Shown here piece after piece: positions 1-11,549 of a DNA stretch of 64,000 nt. The DNA is from Streptomyces sp. WZ-12 (GTDB lineage Bacteria; Actinomycetota; Actinomycetes; Streptomycetales; Streptomycetaceae). The DNA lies in the NCBI RefSeq assembly GCF_028898845.1, contig NZ_CP118574.1, positions 1,798,001 to 1,862,000 of the forward strand, written 5' to 3'. Made by a program: the position numbers and the translations under genes. The first letter of the stretch is position 1, and the number at the start of each line of letters is the position of its first letter. Under the pieces are notes generated by a model. It worked only from the letters and a program-made list of their open reading frames with translations. It was not told where the DNA came from and made no database searches.

Positions 1-759
1 CTACCGTTGCCCCACGGGGCGTTGGTGGCCGCTGGAACGGGCGACAACATGGCGGCGGCGCTCGGCCTGGGCCTGCGCCCCGGGCAGCCGGTGCTGAGCC
101 TGGGCACCTCCGGCACCGTCTACGCGGTCAGCACCCGCCGGCCCGCCGACCCCACCGGCACGGTCGCGGGCTTCGCCGACGCCCGAGGCGACTGGCTCCC
201 CCTGGCCTGCACGCTCAACTGCACGCTCGCCGTGGACCGGGTGGCCGCGCTGCTCGGCCGCGACCGGGAGGCCGTCGAGCCGGGCGGCGACGCCGTGTTG
301 CTGCCCTTCCTGGACGGCGAGCGGACCCCGAATCTGCCGCACGCCTCGGGCCTGCTGCACGGCCTGCGCCACGACACCACCGCCGGCCAACTGCTCCAAG
401 CCGCCTATGACGGCGCGGTGTTCGCGCTGCTGCGGGCGCTGGACGAGCTGCCGGGGACGGACGCCGCGCCCGGCGCGCCGCTGCTGCTGATCGGCGGCGG
501 GGCCCGGGGCGACGCCTGGCGGGAGACCGTGCGCCGGCTCTCCGGCCGGCCGGTGGTGGTGCCCGACGCCGACGAGCTCGCCGCACTGGGGGCGGCGGCG
601 CAGGCGGCCGGGCTGCTACTGGAGGAGGATCCGGCGGCGGTGGCGCGCCGTTGGGGCACGGCCCGCGGCGCGGAATACCCGGCCCGGGAGCAAGACACCG
701 CCACCTGGGGGAGATTGACTGCCACACTGAGCAACGCGGCGCTCCTGTGGGGCAGTTGA
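1..759 (+). CDS. xylB: Xylulokinase, C-terminal part (5' end outside window), likely encapsulin cargo
   Basis: The open frame runs in from the window edge, so only the last 252 residues are visible. They match the C-terminal half of FGGY kinases of the xylulokinase type: the GTGDNMAAALG and LSLGTSGTVYA phosphate-binding stretches, a FLDGERTPN segment, and the IGGGARGDAWRE adenosine-binding loop near the end. The enzyme phosphorylates D-xylulose to xylulose 5-phosphate with ATP in the cytosol. Two family 2B encapsulin shell genes follow on the same strand 205 bp downstream. Xylulose kinases are one of the recognised cargo classes of family 2B encapsulins, so this enzyme is probably packaged in the shell. 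The expected disordered N-terminal cargo-loading extension would lie before base 1 and cannot be checked here. Confidence 0.85.
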   Translation, partial: LPLPHGALVAAGTGDNMAAALGLGLRPGQPVLSLGTSGTVYAVSTRRPADPTGTVAGFADARGDWLPLACTLNCTLAVDRVAALLGRDREAVEPGGDAVLLPFLDGERTPNLPHASGLLHGLRHDTTAGQLLQAAYDGAVFALLRALDELPGTDAAPGAPLLLIGGGARGDAWRETVRRLSGRPVVVPDADELAALGAAAQAAGLLLEEDPAAVARRWGTARGAEYPAREQDTATWGRLTATLSNAALLWGS

Positions 760-813
760 CCGACGGGGCAATCACCCCGGCACACCGTGCCCACATCGAA
801 AAAACGCTAAACC

Positions 814-827
814 CTTTCCAGGGAAAG
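814..827. promoter_or_regulatory. Short palindrome upstream of the first shell gene
   Basis: CTTTCC-AG-GGAAAG is a perfect 6-bp inverted repeat in the AT-richer 205-bp gap between xylB and the first shell gene. A related TTTCC-C-GGAAA palindrome lies upstream of the second shell gene (2458-2468). It could be an operator or part of an RNA structure; function is not shown. Confidence 0.35.
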
Positions 828-963
828 CATTTTCCATGCCACCCATTCGAGCGATTGTGCTGATAAAAACAGCACCACTATCTTCAAGGCGGCGGTGAGC
901 TGCCGGCGGACATTCCTGACTTTCCCCGGTGTACGGTGCCGCAGCCTCCACGAGATAGGTGAC

Positions 964-2376
964 ATGGTGACGATTGCCGGCGAAACGCTGTCCGGAAGCG
1001 CCGAAGAGAGCCAGATTTCCAGCCTGACCACCGCGGCCGCGCGGAATCTGGCGACGACCACCAAGACCGCGCCGCAGATGCAGGGCATCACGTCCCGCTG
1101 GCTGCTGCGGCTGCTGCCCTGGGTGCAGGTCTCCGGCGGCACCTACCGCGTCAACCGGCGGCTGGCGTACACCGTCGGCGACGGGCGGATCGACTTCGAC
1201 ATCAACGGCACCTCGGTCTCGATCATCCCCGACGAGCTGCGCGAACTCCCCGTCCTCCAGGACTTCACCGACACCCAGGTGCTCGCCGCGCTTGGCGAAA
1301 GGTTCACTCAACACGAGTACGCGCCGGGCGAGGTGATCGCCCAGGCCGGCACCCCGCACGACCGCCTGGTTCTGATCGCGCACGGCCGCGTCGACCGGAT
1401 CGGCACCGGAAAATACGGTGACGAGGCCGTCCTCGAAGCGCTGGCCGGCGGCGACCACCTCGGTGACGCCCCGCTCAACGCCGCCGACGGCCAATGGGAG
1501 TTCAGCTACCGGGCGGTGACCCGGGTGACGGTGATGGCCCTGGCGCGGCAGGACGCCCAGGAGGTCATCGGCCGCTCCCCGGCCCTGCGCGACCACCTCG
1601 CGACGGACCCGAGTGGCGACGGCCGACCGGCCAACGCCAGCGGCGAGTCCGAGGTCGCGCTCGCCTCCGGCCACCACGGCGAGCCCGCCCTGCCCAGCAC
1701 CTTCGTCGACTACGAGCCGGCCCCGCGGGAGTACGAACTCAGCGTCGCGCAGACCGTCCTGCGCACCCACACCCGCGTCGGCGACCTCTACAGCGACCCG
1801 ATGAACCAGGTCGAGGAGCAGCTCAAGCTCACCGTGCAGGCGCTGCGCGAGCGCCAGGAGCACGAGATGATCAACAACCCCGGCTTCGGGCTGCTCCACA
1901 ACACCGACCTCAAGCAGCGCATCCACCCCCGCAGCGGCCCACCCACCCCCGACGACCTGGACGAACTCCTCGCGACGGTGTGGAAGGACCCCAGCTTCCT
2001 GCTGGCCCACCCCAAGGTGATCGCCGCGATCGGCCGGGAGTGCAGCGCCCGCGGCCTCTACCCGGACGCGGTCGACTTCATGGGCCACTCGGTGCCGTCC
2101 TGGCGCGGCGTGCCGATCTTCCCCTGCAACAAGATCCCGGTGACGAAGGAGGGCACCAGCTCGGTGCTGGTACTGCGCACCGGCGAGGAGAAGCAGGGTG
2201 TCGTGGGGCTACACCGCAGCGGAATTCCCGATGAATACGAACCGAGCCTTTCGGTGCGTTTCATGGGCATCGACGACAAGGCCATCGCCAACTACCTCGT
2301 CAGCGCCTACTATTCGGCGGCCATTCTCGTACCCGACGCGGTGGGACTCCTCCAGGACGTGGAAATCGGGCACTGA
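964..2376 (+). CDS. Family 2B encapsulin nanocompartment shell protein (shell 1)
   Basis: Structural protein expected to self-assemble into an icosahedral HK97-fold shell around a cargo enzyme. The order is a short variable N-arm (1-20), a conserved block beginning [11 protein letters not shown] with the [12 protein letters not shown] stretch (about 22-100), a cyclic-nucleotide-binding-like insertion (about 100-215, with [18 protein letters not shown]), then the remaining HK97 core (about 245-470) with [26 protein letters not shown] and a [13 protein letters not shown] segment. The cNMP-like insertion is what defines family 2B. I chose ATG 964 (470 aa) because it matches the start and length of the paralogue downstream (471 aa); a GTG at 895 would add 23 poorly conserved residues but has a purine-rich AAGGCGG before it. 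It probably forms one operon with xylB and shell 2. Confidence 0.88.
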
Positions 2377-2457
2377 GCGGACGAACAGGAGGGACAACTG
2401 CCGCCCGCAACGGGCCAGTAGAAACCCTCCGCACCCAACTCCCCCGCTTTCCGGTGC

Positions 2458-2468
2458 TTTCCCGGAAA
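2458..2468. promoter_or_regulatory. Short palindrome between the two shell genes
   Basis: TTTCC-C-GGAAA lies 50 bp before the second shell start, in the 141-bp gap. It resembles the CTTTCC/GGAAAG palindrome before shell 1. It may be a shared operator or an RNA processing/attenuation hairpin that tunes the ratio of the two shell proteins; this is inference. Confidence 0.3.
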
Positions 2469-2517
2469 TCTCCGCAGCGACGTTTCACGCACCGAACGGA
2501 ACAGGTGACTTCCCGTC

Positions 2518-3933
2518 ATGACCACATCCGTGGACCCCACGTCCGGCCCGCAGACCGACGGCACCGAGCAGCTCCGGTCCAGCCTGGACCCCACGGCCGC
2601 CCGCAACTTGGCGACCACCACCAAGACCCCGCCGCAGATGCAGGGCATCTCCTCGCGCTGGCTGCTGCGCATCCTGCCCTGGGTACAGGTCTCCGGCGGC
2701 ACGTACCGCGTCAACCGGCGGCTGACCCACACCCTCGGCGACGGCGAGGTGGAGTTCATCACCGAGGGCTCCGAAGTCCGGGTGATCCCCCAGGAGTTGC
2801 GGGAGCTCCCCCCGCTGCGCGGCCTCACCGACGACGCCACCCTCCAGGAGCTCGCCGGGCGCTTCGTCCAGCGCGACATCGTCCCCGGAGACGTGCTCGC
2901 CGAGCGGGGTGCGACGACCGACCAGATCATCCTCATCGCGCACGGCAAGTTCGAGCGCATCGGCACCGGCAAGTACGGCGACGAGCGGGTGCTCGGCGTC
3001 CTCGCCGGCGGCGGGGCGGCCGGCGAGGCGGCACTGCTCGCGCCGGACGCGGAATGGGAGTTCACCCTGCGCGCCGCCACCCGCGGCACCATCCTCACCC
3101 TCTCCCGCGGCGACTACGAGGAGGTGCTCGGCCGTTCCGCGGCGCTCCGCGCGCACATCGAGGGCGTCCGCACGGCCCTGGTCCCGGCGCAGAACAAGCA
3201 CGGCGAGGCCGCCATCGAACTGGCCGCCGGCCACAGCGGCGAGCCCGAACTGCCGGGCACGTTCGTGGACTACGAGCGAGCGCCGCGGGAGTACTCGCTC
3301 AGCGTCGCGCAGACCGTGCTGAAGATCCACTCCCGGGTCGCCGACCTCTACAACGACCCGATGAACCAGCTCGACCAGCAGTTGCGGCTCACGGTGGAGG
3401 CGCTGCGCGAGCGCCAGGAGCACGAGCTGGTCAACAACCGGGAGTTCGGCCTGCTGTACAACGCCGACCTCAAGCAGCGCATCCACACCCACAGCGGCCC
3501 GCCCACCCCCGACGACCTGGACGAGCTGATCTCCAGGCGCCGCAAGACCCAGTTCCTGCTGGCGCACCCGCGGACCATCGCCGCCATCGGCCGCGAGTGG
3601 AACGCCCGCGGCATCTACCCGGCGACGGTGGACTTCGACGGCACACCCGTGCGCGCCTGGCGCGGCATCCCGCTGCTGCCCTGCAACAAGATCCCGATCA
3701 ACCCGGACCAGACCAGCTCGATCCTCGCGATGCGCGTCGGCGAGGAGAACCAGGGCGTCGTCGGCCTCCACCAGACCGGCATCCCCGACGAGTACCGCCC
3801 GGGCCTCTCGGTCCGCTTCATGGGCATCAACGACCAGGCCATCATCAAGTACCTGGTCAGCGCCTACCATTCGGCGGCGGTGCTGGTGCCGGACGCGCTG
3901 GGCATCCTGGAGGACGTCGAGATCGGCCGCTGA
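2518..3933 (+). CDS. Family 2B encapsulin nanocompartment shell protein (shell 2)
   Basis: 471-residue paralogue of the preceding shell protein, with identical domain order: N-arm, [11 protein letters not shown] block, cNMP-binding-like insertion (about 100-215), and HK97 core from [15 protein letters not shown] to the C-terminus [10 protein letters not shown]. By eye well over half of all positions are identical to shell 1, with the divergence concentrated in the N-arm, the nucleotide-domain loops and the linker around residues 215-240. That is what two co-assembling but distinct subunits would look like. ATG 2518 is preceded by AGGTGA at 9 nt. The two nucleotide pockets differ in sequence, so ligand binding may differ or be lost in one. 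A strong hairpin follows, closing the operon. Confidence 0.9.
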
Positions 3934-4255
3934 CCGACCGGGCCGGGGCACCGCCCCCGTCGACCGGACCGGAGACGTCACCACCCGGGTGCCGCCGCCG
4001 CACTGACGCCCCGTAAGGGGCCGGAGGTGCGGCGCGGCACCCGGGTGCGTTCGTGCGACCACCCCTGGAATCATTGGGGCGTTGGGCCGATCAGGGAACG
4101 TTGAGCGCTTTTGACCCGTCCCGGGCCTTCTTTGGTCAAGCCATTGACGCAACGGCCATTCCCTTGGCAGGACGCGCACTGTTGCGCATGATGAACGCAC
4201 CGGCATGTGCGTGACATGTACGCGACCACCCCCTCGGTCCTTGTCAGGAGTTCAC
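3934..4255. other. 322-bp gap between encapsulin operon and amidase gene
   Basis: It holds the terminator hairpin (3982-4047) and, further on, an AT-richer stretch with TTGACG at 4144 that could be a -35 element for the amidase gene. TTGACGCAACG here recurs exactly at 5156-5166, just before the phosphodiester glycosidase gene. No gene seen. Confidence 0.5.
3982..4047 (+). terminator. Large hairpin terminator after the encapsulin operon
   Basis: Two outward arms beginning and ending with CACCCGGGTG pair over about 30 bp (CACCCGGGTGCCGC against GCGGCACCCGGGTG, then CGCAC/GTGCG and GCCCC/GGGGC) around a GTAA loop. There is no T-run, as is usual for Streptomyces terminators. Confidence 0.75.
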
Positions 4256-4897
4256 ATGGAACCCGCCCAGCACTTCCCGGCCCGCCGGCGGCTGCTCACC
4301 AGCGCCGCCGCACTCGCCGCGGCCGCCGCGCTCACCCCCCTCACCCCGGCCGCCGCGGCCCCGCGCAAACGCTCCGCCCAGCCCGCCGACTACCCGCCCG
4401 TCCACTGGACCCCGGCCGACCCCGCCAACTACTCCGCCGCCGACCGCCCGGCGCAGTACGCCATCGACACCGTCATCATCCACGTGACCCAGGAGACCTT
4501 CCCGGACACCCTGCGGCTCTTCCAGGACTCCACCCACAAGGCCGCCGCCCACTACGTCGTCCGCTCCTCCGACGGCTTCACCGCCCAGTGCGTCCACGAA
4601 CGGGACGTCGCCTGGCACGCCGGCAACTGGAGCTACAACACCCGCAGCATCGGCATCGAGCACGAGGGCTGGATCGACGACCCGAAGTGGTTCACCGAGT
4701 CGCTCTACGCCCACTCCGCGATGCTCACCGCCGCCATCTGCGAGCGCTACGGCATCCCCAAGGACCGCAAGCACATCATCGGCCACGTCGAGGTCCCCGG
4801 AACCGACCACACCGACCCCGGCCAGTACTGGGACTGGGCCCACTACATGGAGCTGGTCAACGGCATGGCCTTCTGGGAAAACCTCCTGGACGCCTGA
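4256..4897 (+). CDS. Secreted N-acetylmuramoyl-L-alanine amidase (amidase_2, Tat signal)
   Basis: 213-residue peptidoglycan amidase that cleaves the bond between N-acetylmuramic acid and L-alanine outside the cell. The N-terminus has a twin-arginine style signal (ARRRLLTSAAALAAA, cleaved near AAAAAP at about 35). The mature part is an amidase_2/T7-lysozyme fold: zinc ligand His in TVIIHVTQ, the AHYVVRSSDG stretch, Trp-His in DVAWHAGNWSYN, and the HIIGHVEVPGTDHTDPG segment that carries the second zinc His and a final GTDHTDPG loop. ATG 4256 is chosen because AGGAG precedes it by 6 nt. No cell-wall-binding domain is visible, so it is a single-domain enzyme; the role may be wall turnover or recycling. 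Confidence 0.88.
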   Translation: MEPAQHFPARRRLLTSAAALAAAAALTPLTPAAAAPRKRSAQPADYPPVHWTPADPANYSAADRPAQYAIDTVIIHVTQETFPDTLRLFQDSTHKAAAHYVVRSSDGFTAQCVHERDVAWHAGNWSYNTRSIGIEHEGWIDDPKWFTESLYAHSAMLTAAICERYGIPKDRKHIIGHVEVPGTDHTDPGQYWDWAHYMELVNGMAFWENLLDA

Positions 4898-4994
4898 CCC
4901 GACCACCTGACGCCTCATAGGGCAACCAGGCCCGGACCCGCCCACACCCGCCGAACCGCCCCACGCACCACACCCCAACCACCCGCCCCAGATA

Positions 4995-5027
4995 ACACCG
5001 GGCGACACCGGGCGACATCGGGCGACA
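4995..5027. repeat. 10-bp tandem repeat, three copies
   Basis: ACACCGGGCG is repeated three times (third copy with one change, ACATCGGGCG) plus a partial fourth, in the gap between the amidase and the glycosidase genes. One unit is one helical turn. It could be slippage sequence or a stacked protein-binding site; no function can be assigned. Confidence 0.6.
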
Positions 5028-5179
5028 CAACATCATCACCCAGCTCACCCGCCCCATCCGCCGCCCGCTTCCCCCTCACCCCGCTACACCGTTCCGCGGA
5101 TGTTCGGCACTCCGCCATCCGCGGGCCACAGCACCACCGCCACCGCCTGGGACAGTTGACGCAACGTCAGGGGGCTGAT

Positions 5180-6424
5180 GTGAAACAGCGGTTGAGCAAG
5201 GCCCGAACGGTGACGGCGGTCGCCGTCGCCTGGGGCGTCCTGGTCGGTGGCGCCGCCGCCGGCACGACACGGGCGAACGCCGCGGACGACGGCCTCACCC
5301 GATCCACCCCGTTGCGACTGGCGCCCGGGGTGACCTACACCGAATTCCGCATGCCACTGCCGCGCGGCCTCGTCCACGGGCACCTGCTGACCGTGGACCT
5401 GTCCGCTCCGGCGGTCACGGTGGACCTGCTCCACCCGGCCGCCGTCGCCGCCCGCACCCGGGTGTCCGAACTGGCCGGGGAGCGGGACGCGGTCGGGGCG
5501 GTCAACGGCGACTTCTTCAACATCTCCGAGGCCCAGCACCCCGGGGTCGAGGCCACCGGCTCCTCGGTCGGCCCCGCGGTGTCCTCCGGGCGGGAGCTCA
5601 AGGCCGCGGTCCCCAACGGCCAACGCTTCGGCCCCGCCCTTCCACCCGGCGCCACCACCGAGGACGTGCTCGGCGTCGGCTACGACCACCGCGCGCGCCT
5701 GGACCGACTGACACTGCACGGCACGATCCGCACCCCCCACGGCTCCTGGCCACTGCGCGGCCTGAACCAGTACGCGCTCCCGGAGGGCGGCATCGGCGCG
5801 TACACCGCCCAATGGGGCCAGGTGTCCCGGAAACGGGCGGTCTGCGGCACCGACACCGACCGCGCCGCCGGCTGCGACACCGACACCGCCGAGGTGACGG
5901 TCCGCAACGGCCGCGTGACGGAGACCGCCGAACGCCCCGGCGCCGGCGTGATCGAACCGGGCTCGGTCGTCCTGCTCGGCCGCGAGGCGGGCGCCCGTCG
6001 ACTGCGCACGCTCCACATCGGCCAACGGGTGCGCCTGGCCCACCGGCTCGCCCCCCGCCTGCCGGGCCGACTCCGCTGCGCCGTCGGCGGCTTCCCGGTC
6101 CTGCGCAACGGTCGCCCGGCGGGCGGCCTGGACACCGCCGCGGTGACGATGCGCACCTCCGCCGGCACCGCCCACCACGGCCGCACCCTGCTCCTGATGG
6201 CCCTGGACGGCGAGAAGGGCCAGCACCAGACCGGCCTCACCGTGCGCGAACTGGCCGACCTGATGGTCCGCCTCGGCGCCCGTGACGCGCTGGACCTCGA
6301 CGGCGGGGGCTCCTCGACCTTCGTCACCCGCGACCAGCACGATGAGGAGCAGGTCCGCAACCACCCCACGGACGGCAGGGAACGCCGGGTGGCCAACGCG
6401 GTGGGCGTTTTCTCCACCGGCTGA
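5180..6424 (+). CDS. Secreted phosphodiester glycosidase family protein (NAGPA-like)
   Basis: 414 residues with an N-terminal secretion signal (MKQRLSKARTVTAVAVAWG..., cleavage near TRANA-ADD at about 36). The rest fits the phosphodiester glycosidase/NAGPA domain, which hydrolyses sugar-phosphodiester linkages: VGAVNGDFFNI in the first third and the hallmark DALDLDGGGSSTF near the C-terminus. It is likely to act on phosphodiester sugars of wall polymers or exopolysaccharide. GTG 5180 is preceded by AGGGGG; a TTG at 5156 in the same frame would sit inside the TTGACGCAACG element and was rejected. The substrate is unknown. Confidence 0.82.
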   Translation: MKQRLSKARTVTAVAVAWGVLVGGAAAGTTRANAADDGLTRSTPLRLAPGVTYTEFRMPLPRGLVHGHLLTVDLSAPAVTVDLLHPAAVAARTRVSELAGERDAVGAVNGDFFNISEAQHPGVEATGSSVGPAVSSGRELKAAVPNGQRFGPALPPGATTEDVLGVGYDHRARLDRLTLHGTIRTPHGSWPLRGLNQYALPEGGIGAYTAQWGQVSRKRAVCGTDTDRAAGCDTDTAEVTVRNGRVTETAERPGAGVIEPGSVVLLGREAGARRLRTLHIGQRVRLAHRLAPRLPGRLRCAVGGFPVLRNGRPAGGLDTAAVTMRTSAGTAHHGRTLLLMALDGEKGQHQTGLTVRELADLMVRLGARDALDLDGGGSSTFVTRDQHDEEQVRNHPTDGRERRVANAVGVFSTG

Positions 6425-6730: not shown

Positions 6731-6931
6731 CTAGGGGCGGACGCTGCTGACGACCTCGGCGGCGCCGGCGAGGCCGTGGTGGATGTCCGGGGCGAGGCTG
6801 CTGCCCGCGAGGTAGAAGCCGAGCAGTCCGCACACGACGGCGTGCGAGATCTTCAGCTTTCCGCTGCGCAGGAAGATCACGATCAGGACCACCAACAAGA
6901 GGATGACGGAGACGGAGACGGCCACGGACAC
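6731..6931 (-). CDS. Small membrane protein of unknown function (66 aa)
   Basis: A 66-residue protein with a hydrophobic N-terminal helix (SVILLLVVLIVIFLRSGKLK), a second hydrophobic segment (HAVVCGLLGFYLAGSSLA) and a short tail APDIHHGLAGAAEVVSSVRP. GTG 6931 is preceded by AGGAGG at 4 nt; another GTG two codons on is also possible. I recognise the pattern as a small membrane protein common in Streptomyces, with no assigned function. It is transcribed away from the lipoprotein/lysX genes. Confidence 0.72.
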   Translation of the reverse strand: MSVAVSVSVILLLVVLIVIFLRSGKLKISHAVVCGLLGFYLAGSSLAPDIHHGLAGAAEVVSSVRP

Positions 6932-8237: not shown

Positions 8238-11200
8238 ATGAGCACCGTGCAGGACCAGGATCAACTCACGGGGTGGCGACGCTTCCGGCGCCGCGTCCCC
8301 AATGGCTTTGCCATCATCTTCAGCTTGCTGGGGCTCTTCTGTGCCCTGACAGCGCTGATCGGGCCCCTTCGGCGCGCTCTCCACTCAGTGATCTACTGGC
8401 TGGACACGCTCACCATCCCGGTGGCGCCGAACTTCGCCTACGCCGCGTTCCTCTTCCTCCTGGCCGCGGCGATGACCGCCCGGAAACGGGTGGCCCTGTG
8501 GTTCGTGGCCGCGTACATGGTGTTGAACGTCCTCGCTGACGCGCTGTTCCTGGCCGCCGGGTACTGGGAGTTCGGCTTCTCCCTGGTGCTGTGCGCCGGG
8601 GCGCTGGTGCTGTTGGTGGTGTCGCACCGGGAGTTCTACGCGATCACCCGGCGCGGGGCGTTCCTGCGGGCCGCGTTGGTGCTCGTCGGCGGTCTGGTGA
8701 CCGCGGTGCTGATCGGCTGGGGCCTGGTGTCGCTGGTGCCCGGTTCGCTGGAGCACGGCGGCGGCAACCGGCTGCTGTGGGCGGCCAATCGCGTCTGCGG
8801 TGGGCTGGTCGGCGGCCGGATCGTCGAGGGGCACCCGCCGCACTGGATCGGCACCCTGCTCGGTCTGCTGGGCGCGCTGGCGCTGCTCAACGCCGCCGCC
8901 GCACTGTTCCGTTCGCAGCGGATGGAAGCCGCGCTGCACGGTGACGAGGAGGCCCGGATCCGGGCGCTGCTGTCGAAGTACGGCAGTCAGGACTCGCTCG
9001 GCTACTTCGCCACGCGTCGCGACAAGGCCGTGGTCTTCTCCCCCAGCGGCAAGGCCGCGGTCACGTATCGGGTCGAGGCCGGTGTCTGTCTGGCCAGTGG
9101 TGACCCGGTCGGTGACCGGGAGGCGTGGGGTCCGGCCATTGATGCGTGGCTGGAAGTCGCCGGTCGGTACGGCTGGCAGCCGGCGGTCATGGGGGCGAGC
9201 GAGGACGGCGCGAAGGCGTTCGCGCGCGCCGGGCTGGGTGCGTTGCAGCTCGGTGACGAGGCGATCCTGCAGGTGACGAACTTCGATCTGGACGGCCGGG
9301 ACATGCGGGTCACCCGCCAGGCCGTCAACCGCGTCCAGCGGACCGGTGCGACGTTCCGGGTGCGGCGTCACGCGGAGCTGACCGACGCGGAGATGCAGGA
9401 GGTCATCCACCGGGCGGACGCGTGGCGGGACACCGAGACCGAGCGTGGCTTCTCGATGGCGCTGGACCGGCTCGGGGACGGGCAGGACGGTGACTGTCTG
9501 CTGGCGGAGGCGTTCGACAGCGACGGCAGGATGATCGCGCTGCTGTCGTTCGTGCCGTGGGGCAAGGACGGCATCTCGCTGGATCTGATGCGGCGCGACC
9601 GCAGTGCGCCGAACGGCGTGATGGAGTACATGGTCGCGCAGGTGTGTGCGCAGGCCGGGGCGCTGGGAGTGCGCCGGATCTCGCTGAACTTCGCGGTGTT
9701 CCGGTCCGCCTTCGAGGAGGGTTCCCGGATCGGTGCCGGGCCGGTGTTGAAGGTCTGGCGGCGGCTGCTGCTGTTCTTCTCCCGTTGGTGGCAGTTGGAG
9801 GCGCTGTACCGCTCGAACTCGAAGTACCACCCGGAGTGGTACCCGCGGTTCCTGTGCTACGCGGATGCCGGTGCGCTGGCGCGGATCGGTATGGCCTCGG
9901 GTATCGCCGAGGGCTTCGTGGCGGTGCCGAGCCTGGGCAAGCTGTGGGGCAAGGGGCACAAGAAGCGGGTGTTGGCCCCGGCGAGCACGGCGGGTCTGCC
10001 GTCGCTCGACGAGTTGGGTCTGGTGGCGTCCGAGCCGGCCACCGAAGAGGAGCGGCGCGCGCAGGAGTTGGCGGCGCTGCCGGAGCAGGTGCGGGTGCGG
10101 CACCAGAAGTTGGAGCGGCTGCGGGAGACGGGCGTCGACCCGTATCCGGTGGGCGTGCAGCGGACGCACACGCTGGGTCAGGTGCGCGAGGAGCACCGGG
10201 GGCTGGCGGCCGGGGAGCGCACCGGCAAGACCGTGACGGTGGCCGGGCGGGTGTTGCTGGTCCGGGATCACGGCGGGGTGCTGTTCGCGGAGTTGCGGGA
10301 CTGGTCGGGCGATCTGCAGATCGCGCTGACGCGGGACGCCGGTGAGTTGCTGGACCGTTTCGGTACGGATGTGGATCTCGGTGACCATGTGGAGGCCGAG
10401 GGCGAGGTCGGGGCCAGTGACCGCGGCGAGTTGACGGTGTTCGTCACCGGGTGGCGGCTGACGGCGAAGTGTCTGCGTCCGCTGCCGGACAAGCGGCGGG
10501 GGCTGTCCGACCCGGAGGCGCGGGTCCGTCAGCGGTATGTGGACCTGGTGGTCTCGTCGGAGGCGCGGGAGACCGTGCGGGCGCGCAGCACGGCGGTGCA
10601 GGCGCTGCGGCAGGGGCTGATCGACCGGGGTTACCTGGAGGTCGAGACGCCGATGCTCCAGCAGATCCACGGTGGTGCCAACGCCCGGCCGTTCCACACC
10701 CACATCAACGCCTACGACCTGGACCTGTATCTGCGGATCGCGCCGGAGCTGTATCTGAAGCGGCTCTGTGTGGGCGGTATGGAGAAGGTCTTCGAGATGG
10801 GGCGGACGTTCCGGAACGAGGGCATCTCGTACAAGCACAACCCCGAGTTCACGATGTTGGAGGCGTACCAGGCGTTCGCCGACTATGACGTGATGCTCAA
10901 TCTGACCCGGGAGTTGATCCAGGGTGCGGCGGTCGCCGCGTTCGGGAGCGCCACCGCTCGTAAGGCGGACAAGAACGGGCGGTTGGTCGAGCACGACATC
11001 TCGGGCGTCTGGCCGGTGAAGACGGTGTACGGCGCGATCTCCGAGGCGCTCGGGGAAGAGGTGACGGCCGATACCGAGCCGGATGTGCTGCGGAGGCTGT
11101 GTCTGGGCGCTTCGGTGCCGGTGACCCCGGAGATGGGTCGGGGCGACGTGGTGTTGGAGATGTACGAGCGGCTGGTGGAGGAGAAGACCACGCTGCCGAC

Positions 11201-11549
11201 GTTCTACAAGGACTTCCCCACGGACGTCTCGCCGTTGACGCGTCAGCACCGGGTGGATCCGCGGTTGGCGGAGCGTTGGGACCTGGTGGCGTTCGGCACC
11301 GAGTTGGGCACCGCGTACTCGGAGTTGACCGATCCGGTCGAGCAGCGGCGGCGGTTGACCGCGCAGTCGCTGTTGGCGGCCGGCGGGGACCCGGAGGCGA
11401 TGGAGTTGGACGAGGACTTCCTCCAGGCGCTGGAGTACGCGATGCCGCCGACCGGTGGTCTGGGCATCGGCGTGGACCGGCTGGTGATGTTCCTGACGGG
11501 TCTGTCGATCCGGGAGACGCTGCCGTTCCCGTTGGTGCGTAAGCGCTGA
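8238..11549 (+). CDS. lysX: Bifunctional lysylphosphatidylglycerol synthase / lysyl-tRNA synthetase LysX
   Basis: 1103-residue fusion. The N-terminal part (about 30-230) has several membrane segments, then an MprF-type flippase/GNAT-like cytosolic domain (about 230-590) that transfers lysine from Lys-tRNA to phosphatidylglycerol. The C-terminal part (about 620-1103) is a class II lysyl-tRNA synthetase: OB-fold anticodon domain, motif 2 in [21 protein letters not shown], and motif 3 in [16 protein letters not shown] at the end. The product makes cationic membrane lipid, giving resistance to cationic peptides, and supplies its own Lys-tRNA. It is longer than either component alone, as expected for the actinobacterial LysX fusion. 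ATG 8238 lies after a leader of about 150 bp. A strong hairpin follows the stop. Confidence 0.95.

Follow-up and report, generated by a model that had tools for sequence, protein, structure and literature searches.

We examined a 64,000-bp stretch of the chromosome of Streptomyces sp. WZ-12 (NZ_CP118574.1, positions 1,798,001 to 1,862,000; hereafter the window) that encodes the two shell proteins of an encapsulin next to a xylulokinase (XK). The shell genes, Enc1 (964..2376, + strand, 470 aa) and Enc2 (2518..3933, + strand, 471 aa), are both full-length open reading frames separated by a gap of 141 bp. In profile searches, Enc1 and Enc2 matched PF19307 with E values of 7.9e-132 and 6.8e-139, respectively, and each contains an inserted PF00027 domain (cyclic nucleotide monophosphate (cNMP)-binding-like) above the Pfam cut-off, the combination that identifies Family 2B shells. 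The insertions occupy residues 117-203 of Enc1 (1312..1572, + strand; E 3.4e-11) and residues 121-205 of Enc2 (2878..3132, + strand; E 1.8e-10). The two proteins share 62% identity overall, falling to 50% across the insertion with its linker and rising to 70% over the C-terminal part. Their closest solved structures are 9bje for Enc1 (E 2e-253) and 9bix for Enc2 (E 1.6e-254), which we take to correspond to the Streptomyces lydicus proteins Sl-Enc1 and Sl-Enc2 (PMC12407261, 2025). A pair of distinct shell genes less than 10 kb apart is the arrangement of a two-component Family 2B system.

The window opens inside the XK gene. Positions 1..759 (+ strand) hold the C-terminal 252 codons and the stop of a 476-aa FGGY xylulokinase (PF00370, PF02782), whose start, read from the flanking DNA, lies 672 bp before the window (G000:C1:1797329, where G000 is the window genome). 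Its best solved relatives are the xylulose kinases 3i8b, 5vm1, and 2itm. With the XK stop ending at 759 and Enc1 starting at 964, XK lies immediately 5' of the shells; xylR is not between them and xylA is not at the locus. These results confirm what had been predicted from the DNA alone: a Family 2B locus with two shells that belongs to the xylulose-kinase class, in which two diverged shell paralogues lie 3' of a xylulokinase on one strand and both have a cNMP-like insertion. The locus is a complete, close relative of an already published encapsulin system. An N-terminal disordered extension of XK, which the original prediction had proposed as a check on its status as cargo, was not present: the FGGY_N match begins at residue 10 of 476, with nine residues before it, and XK N-termini at shell-free loci are comparably short. 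XK thus lacks the unannotated or disordered terminal extension of other Family 2 cargo types. Elsewhere, the genome encodes a second xylulokinase-like protein (L217, G000:C1:1149000-1165000), which matches the shell-linked XK at 55% and adjoins an apparent alcohol/polyol dehydrogenase and a DeoR-type regulator (names assigned by eye). Its sole xylose isomerase match at E <= 1e-20 (L212, G000:C1:8242000-8260000) is approximately 6.45 Mb from the shell-linked XK and has no XK adjoining.

For comparison, we mapped 80 named loci and further genome regions using our own simple gene caller followed by tblastn, which recovered XK genes missed by the caller in L100 and L102. Clades of loci were lettered A to D by hand from gene order, and part of the shell-free XK loci were hand-picked. 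Motif 1, read by eye as TVWK in Enc1 and RRRK in Enc2 of the window, was TVWK in 26 of the 29 clade A Enc1 proteins (RVWK in one, two not parsed) and RRRK in all 29 clade A Enc2 proteins. In the shell tree, clade A Enc1 and Enc2 formed two monophyletic groups of 29 tips each, with supports of 1.0 and 0.993, respectively. The Enc2 proteins of clades A-D clustered with four first-position shells (58 tips, support 0.624), and 26 of the 30 Enc1 proteins of clades B, C, and D also clustered (support 0.835), with a weak join to clade A Enc1 (0.266). This topology fits the co-inheritance of one shell pair, though with weak support at the deep nodes.

A conserved block upstream of Enc1

Alignment of 21 clade A loci identified a block of approximately 80 bp that is conserved upstream of Enc1 and spans 807..886 (+ strand) in the window. 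Every one of the 29 distinct clade A loci carries the core of this block, as do two duplicates from the same clade, some 125-217 bp 5' of where the mapped shell match begins. It was present whether the upstream gene was XK, xylR, or the acetylxylan esterase of L107. No match to the core was observed at any other mapped locus, and it was never upstream of XK. Because the block is conserved throughout clade A (29 of 29 loci), also at the one locus that has no XK, we infer that this promoter-like sequence is probably the control region of the shell pair, which would then have its own promoter.

We searched 11 clade A whole genomes with the Enc1 block, allowing up to two mismatches. Each genome contained one shell-side site at zero or one mismatch. 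The extra sites all carried two mismatches, apart from one in the window genome with a single mismatch (G000 C2:273590), and a reversed-pattern control of the block gave one site in three of the 11 genomes. On this basis, a regulon of cargo genes co-regulated through this block was rejected.

The hairpin predicted to close the locus is real. It is G+C-rich and lies 3' of Enc2 (~3975..4054, + strand), and the fold of 3934-4060 was strong (z = -4.94, a value that none of 200 shuffles equalled). A T run is missing, however, and a terminator scan gave no + strand site within 600-5300.

Gene order with and without the shells

Beyond the hairpin, the window encodes an N-acetylmuramoyl-L-alanine amidase (4256..4897, + strand; PF01510, E 4.3e-32), a phosphodiester glycosidase (NAGPA; 5210..6424, + strand; PF09992, E 4.3e-30), and a small DUF2304-like protein (6731..6931, - strand), the last assigned from synteny and a PF10066 match below the cut-off (E 0.0013). 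The first two have signal-like N-termini by eye, and all three appear to be inherited neighbours. Shell-free XK loci have, with variations, the order SNF2 helicase, F5, XylA (opposite strand), XK, XylR, amidase, GAF regulator, and aldehyde dehydrogenase; some further carry NAGPA, with DUF2304-like and GDPD genes on the opposite strand. Among 29 such loci (omitting L197, which duplicates G106), the amidase was downstream of XK on the same strand in 23 and XylA was adjacent in 27. At clade A loci, the shell pair is preceded by XK (or XylR) and followed by the amidase or NAGPA; all 29 of these loci carry NAGPA, 28 carry XK, 27 the amidase, and 13 XylA. XK was present at four of 14 clade B loci (the L131 sequence breaks off just 5' of NAGPA) and at none of 11 clade D loci, some of which are short or cut by contig ends. 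Several clade D pairs (L085-L089, L091) adjoin a beta-helix/AAA protein, and some adjoin a regulator-aldehyde dehydrogenase pair that is also found 3' of XK at many shell-free loci.

NAGPA was considered as an alternative cargo and rejected, since it is widespread without these shells and has a signal-peptide-like N-terminus by eye. Of 121 genomes, 92 had related NAGPAs and 61 had one at E <= 4.1e-98; 50 of those 61 lacked a clade A, B, or C pair. Among the hand-picked XK loci, those of G009, G099, G026, G077, and G087 were chosen for having NAGPA near XK and do not enter any count of NAGPA linkage.

Shells and XK also occur apart. In Streptomyces celluloflavus (L107, genome G392), both shells and the conserved block are kept at a locus with no XK, and the only XK-like gene genome-wide is a 46% paralogue. 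Conversely, genome G349 (L218, G349:C46:304000-323000) has a clade-A-like XK (82% to the window XK); the amidase and NAGPA come next, 288 bp further on, and both the shells and the block are missing from this 19-kb stretch, which contains no N and lies on a 347-kb contig. Of 392 genomes, 42 gave an Enc1 match at E <= 1e-197, and G349 is not one of them; this threshold was used for shell labels and could miss a genome in which a diverged Enc2 is the sole member of the pair. The ratio of nonsynonymous to synonymous substitution rates (dN/dS) of the G349 XK was 0.16-0.23 against six relatives. In the XK tree, the shell-linked XKs did not form one separate clade. The synteny and the reciprocal losses in L107 and G349 argue against an obligate link between XK and the shells; the retention of XK without xylose isomerase, described below, argues for one. 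A role for XK as obligate cargo is not supported; it may be a facultative cargo.

A third arrangement was observed in Streptomyces philanthi bv. triangulum 23Af2 (L138), which has one shell gene (10001-11404) after NAGPA in place of the two in its relatives L120 and L208, and which retains XK at the locus. The L138 shell is 95-98% identical to L120 Enc1 over alignment columns 0-200, 75% identical to Enc1 compared to 48% to Enc2 over columns 200-240, 98-100% identical to both L120 shells over columns 240-320, and 100% identical to Enc2 over columns 320-440. RRRK occurs in one of 14 first-position clade B shells, which we take to be that of L138. Because an Enc1-like N-terminal part joined to an Enc2-like C-terminal part is what recombination of the two genes would leave, the single shell is apparently an Enc1/Enc2 chimera. 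Passages of PMC12407261 describe XK operons as the only ones that always encode two shells; judged at the locus, L138 is an apparent exception. If functional, this chimera would mean that the C-terminal half of Enc2 suffices for assembly. The two L120 shells are themselves 98% identical over columns 240-320, compared to 48-91% in other 40-column windows, and L120 Enc1 clusters with Enc2 in the tree; local gene conversion between them is likely.

The 9.5-Mb window genome contains six PF19307 genes in total. L008 (G000:C1:7338000-7354000) is a single Family 2B-like shell within a gene cluster that encodes 1-deoxy-D-xylulose 5-phosphate (DXP) synthase, GcpE, a terpene synthase, a methyltransferase, a polyprenyl synthetase, LytB, and DXP reductoisomerase. 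L009 (G000:C1:1228000-1245000) and L010 (463000-480000) are single shells that each adjoin a terpene synthase, and each of these loci carries a protein resembling the L008 methyltransferase by eye. The shell at L011 (G000:C1:2454000-2471000) adjoins a class-V aminotransferase (cysteine desulfurase-like), in which the Pfam match begins at residue 34.

Roles of the shells and the kinase

The explanation that best accommodates these observations, to which we assign a probability of roughly 0.55, is that Enc1 and Enc2 are a co-assembling shell pair with its own promoter, that XK is a neighbour by inheritance and no more than a facultative partner, that shells and XK can each be lost while the other stays, and that the main cargo is encoded elsewhere. 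As in the published orthologues, the two proteins would co-assemble into one shell of approximately 28 nm and 60 subunits with variable composition, and their cNMP-like domains would face outward over the two-fold pores, which they may gate without binding cyclic nucleotides. The pair would be transcribed from the conserved block upstream of Enc1. It appears to sit in an old chromosomal block comprising xylA, XK, xylR, the amidase, NAGPA, and the DUF2304-like gene; we consider XK inherited because other Streptomyces keep parts of this block without shells there. The true or main cargo would then probably be encoded elsewhere in the genome.

A bolder form of this interpretation, which we rate at slightly below even odds, is that the xylulose-kinase class misreads inherited gene order. 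The shells would be an independent unit for which XK is not cargo, their cargo would be encoded elsewhere or there would be no fixed enzyme, and the S. philanthi pair would have recombined into one chimera.

The most serious competitor is that XK is a dedicated cargo, loaded through its folded surface or its short N-terminus instead of a disordered extension, with the shell controlling the flux of ATP, xylulose, or product. We regard this as a tenable but distinctly less probable account. It agrees with the published class assignment, as given in the relevant portions of PMC8346489. Several findings favour it and weigh against an inherited XK with its shells devoted to other cargo. XK accompanies the shells at 28 of 29 clade A loci and at all five clade C loci. 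XK without a genome-wide XylA match was enriched beside shells across 392 genomes (7/30 with shells vs. 3/225; p = 1.5e-5), both in the first 121 genomes (3/11 vs. 1/63; p = 0.009) and in the other 271 (4/19 vs. 2/162; p = 0.0012), though these p values ignore the kinship of the genomes. Some Family 2B shell was present in 118 of 121 genomes (E <= 1e-140), and "without shells" here means that the XK locus lacks a pair of clade A, B, or C. Among XylA-less genomes, XK was kept in 7/13 with shells vs. 3/42 without; G303, with a clade B pair and no XK, was outside the shell set, and moving it gives 7/14 and 3/41 and leaves 7/30 unchanged. XK orthologues without an adjacent XylA, counted by eye in the first 121 genomes, were likewise more frequent where a clade A, B, or C pair was at the locus (5/11 vs. 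3/63 elsewhere; Fisher p = 0.0013). XK lies beside shells with no genome-wide XylA match in G090, G175, G265, G366, G393, and G394. Shell-linked XKs without XylA are still under purifying selection, with a median dN/dS of 0.224 compared to 0.151 at shell-free loci. Five differences are fixed between clade A XKs and those of shell-free loci; none recurs in every shell-linked XK of clades B and C, so these were rejected as shell-specific residues, although one of them, K48, occurs in six of the eight. Lastly, the deep nodes of the shell tree are weakly supported and no candidate cargo elsewhere was identified.

Against XK as dedicated cargo, L107 and most clade B loci have shells but no XK, G349 has XK but no shells at the locus, the promoter block of the shells is separate from XK, and XK has no extension. 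Since the genomes are related, the enrichment also reflects fewer events than genomes: parsimony gives four XylA changes within clade A when the outgroup is coded as XylA-bearing. There are three XylA-less XK cases without such shells (G089, G121, and G349), and G089 has a D-type shell pair approximately 82 kb from XK. The argument that retention of XK without XylA proves a link is weakened by G349, in which XK persists without XylA and without shells at the locus.

It is very improbable that the shell-linked XK instead serves isoprenoid synthesis by making DXP, rather than xylose use, in the manner of the terpene-enzyme cargo of other Family 2B shells. Xylulose kinase can promiscuously phosphorylate 1-deoxyxylulose, as sections of PMC8791446 report, XK persists without xylose isomerase, and three shells of the window genome adjoin terpene synthases, one of them in a methylerythritol phosphate (MEP)-pathway gene cluster; however, a direct link is lacking, no source of 1-deoxyxylulose is known here, and G349 retains XK with no shells at the locus.

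Scarcely any weight is left for ligand-gated shells, in which insertions that bind different cyclic nucleotides would tune the mixed composition, as originally proposed: both insertions match PF00027 and they differ in sequence, but none of 196 shells matched a PS00889-like phosphate-binding pattern (with one CRP fragment, which matches, as the sole positive control), and PMC12407261, in a passage citing its reference 35, denies the Family 2B insertion any binding of cyclic nucleotides. Nucleotide control of the shell is unlikely; the insertions might bind some other ligand.

The natural losses described above allow straightforward comparisons between G349 (XK, no shells at the locus), S. celluloflavus (shells, no XK orthologue), and S. 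philanthi (a single apparent chimera). If XK is not cargo, a named functional class of encapsulins needs revision; if XK is cargo, its survival without xylose isomerase implies a job other than xylose catabolism.

Comparison with described encapsulins

PDB 9bhu, presumably a single-component Family 2B shell for a different type of cargo, and related entries align near full length with Enc1 and Enc2, including the PF00027-like insertion, at a lower score. With the Family 2A shells (SrpI 6x8m, 8t6r), the HK97-fold C-terminal part aligns and the best stretch begins after the insertion, which Family 2A lacks by definition according to passages of PMC8346489.

For the xylulose-kinase class of PMC8346489, as its text on cargo assignment describes, cargo was sought among proteins within 20 open reading frames, and its XKs are reported there to show no consistent disorder. 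The window shares with this class two shells and an XK in Streptomyces, again with no consistent XK disorder. It differs in that parts of the XK neighbourhood are found here without shells, and shells without XK. In the open-licence full-text literature on this class, in the portions consulted, we saw no mention of a chimera or of genomes that have naturally lost XK or the shells.

The closest described system is the S. lydicus pair, in which Sl-Enc1 and Sl-Enc2 co-assemble into mixed shells according to the sections of PMC12407261 on their assembly. Like the window, it comprises adjacent shell genes of an XK system with the same TVWK and RRRK motifs, though at a different locus and probably in a different species. 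The mixed shell composition proposed in the original prediction thus finds support in this published pair. By analogy with S. lydicus, Enc1 and Enc2 of the window very likely form mixed shells as well.

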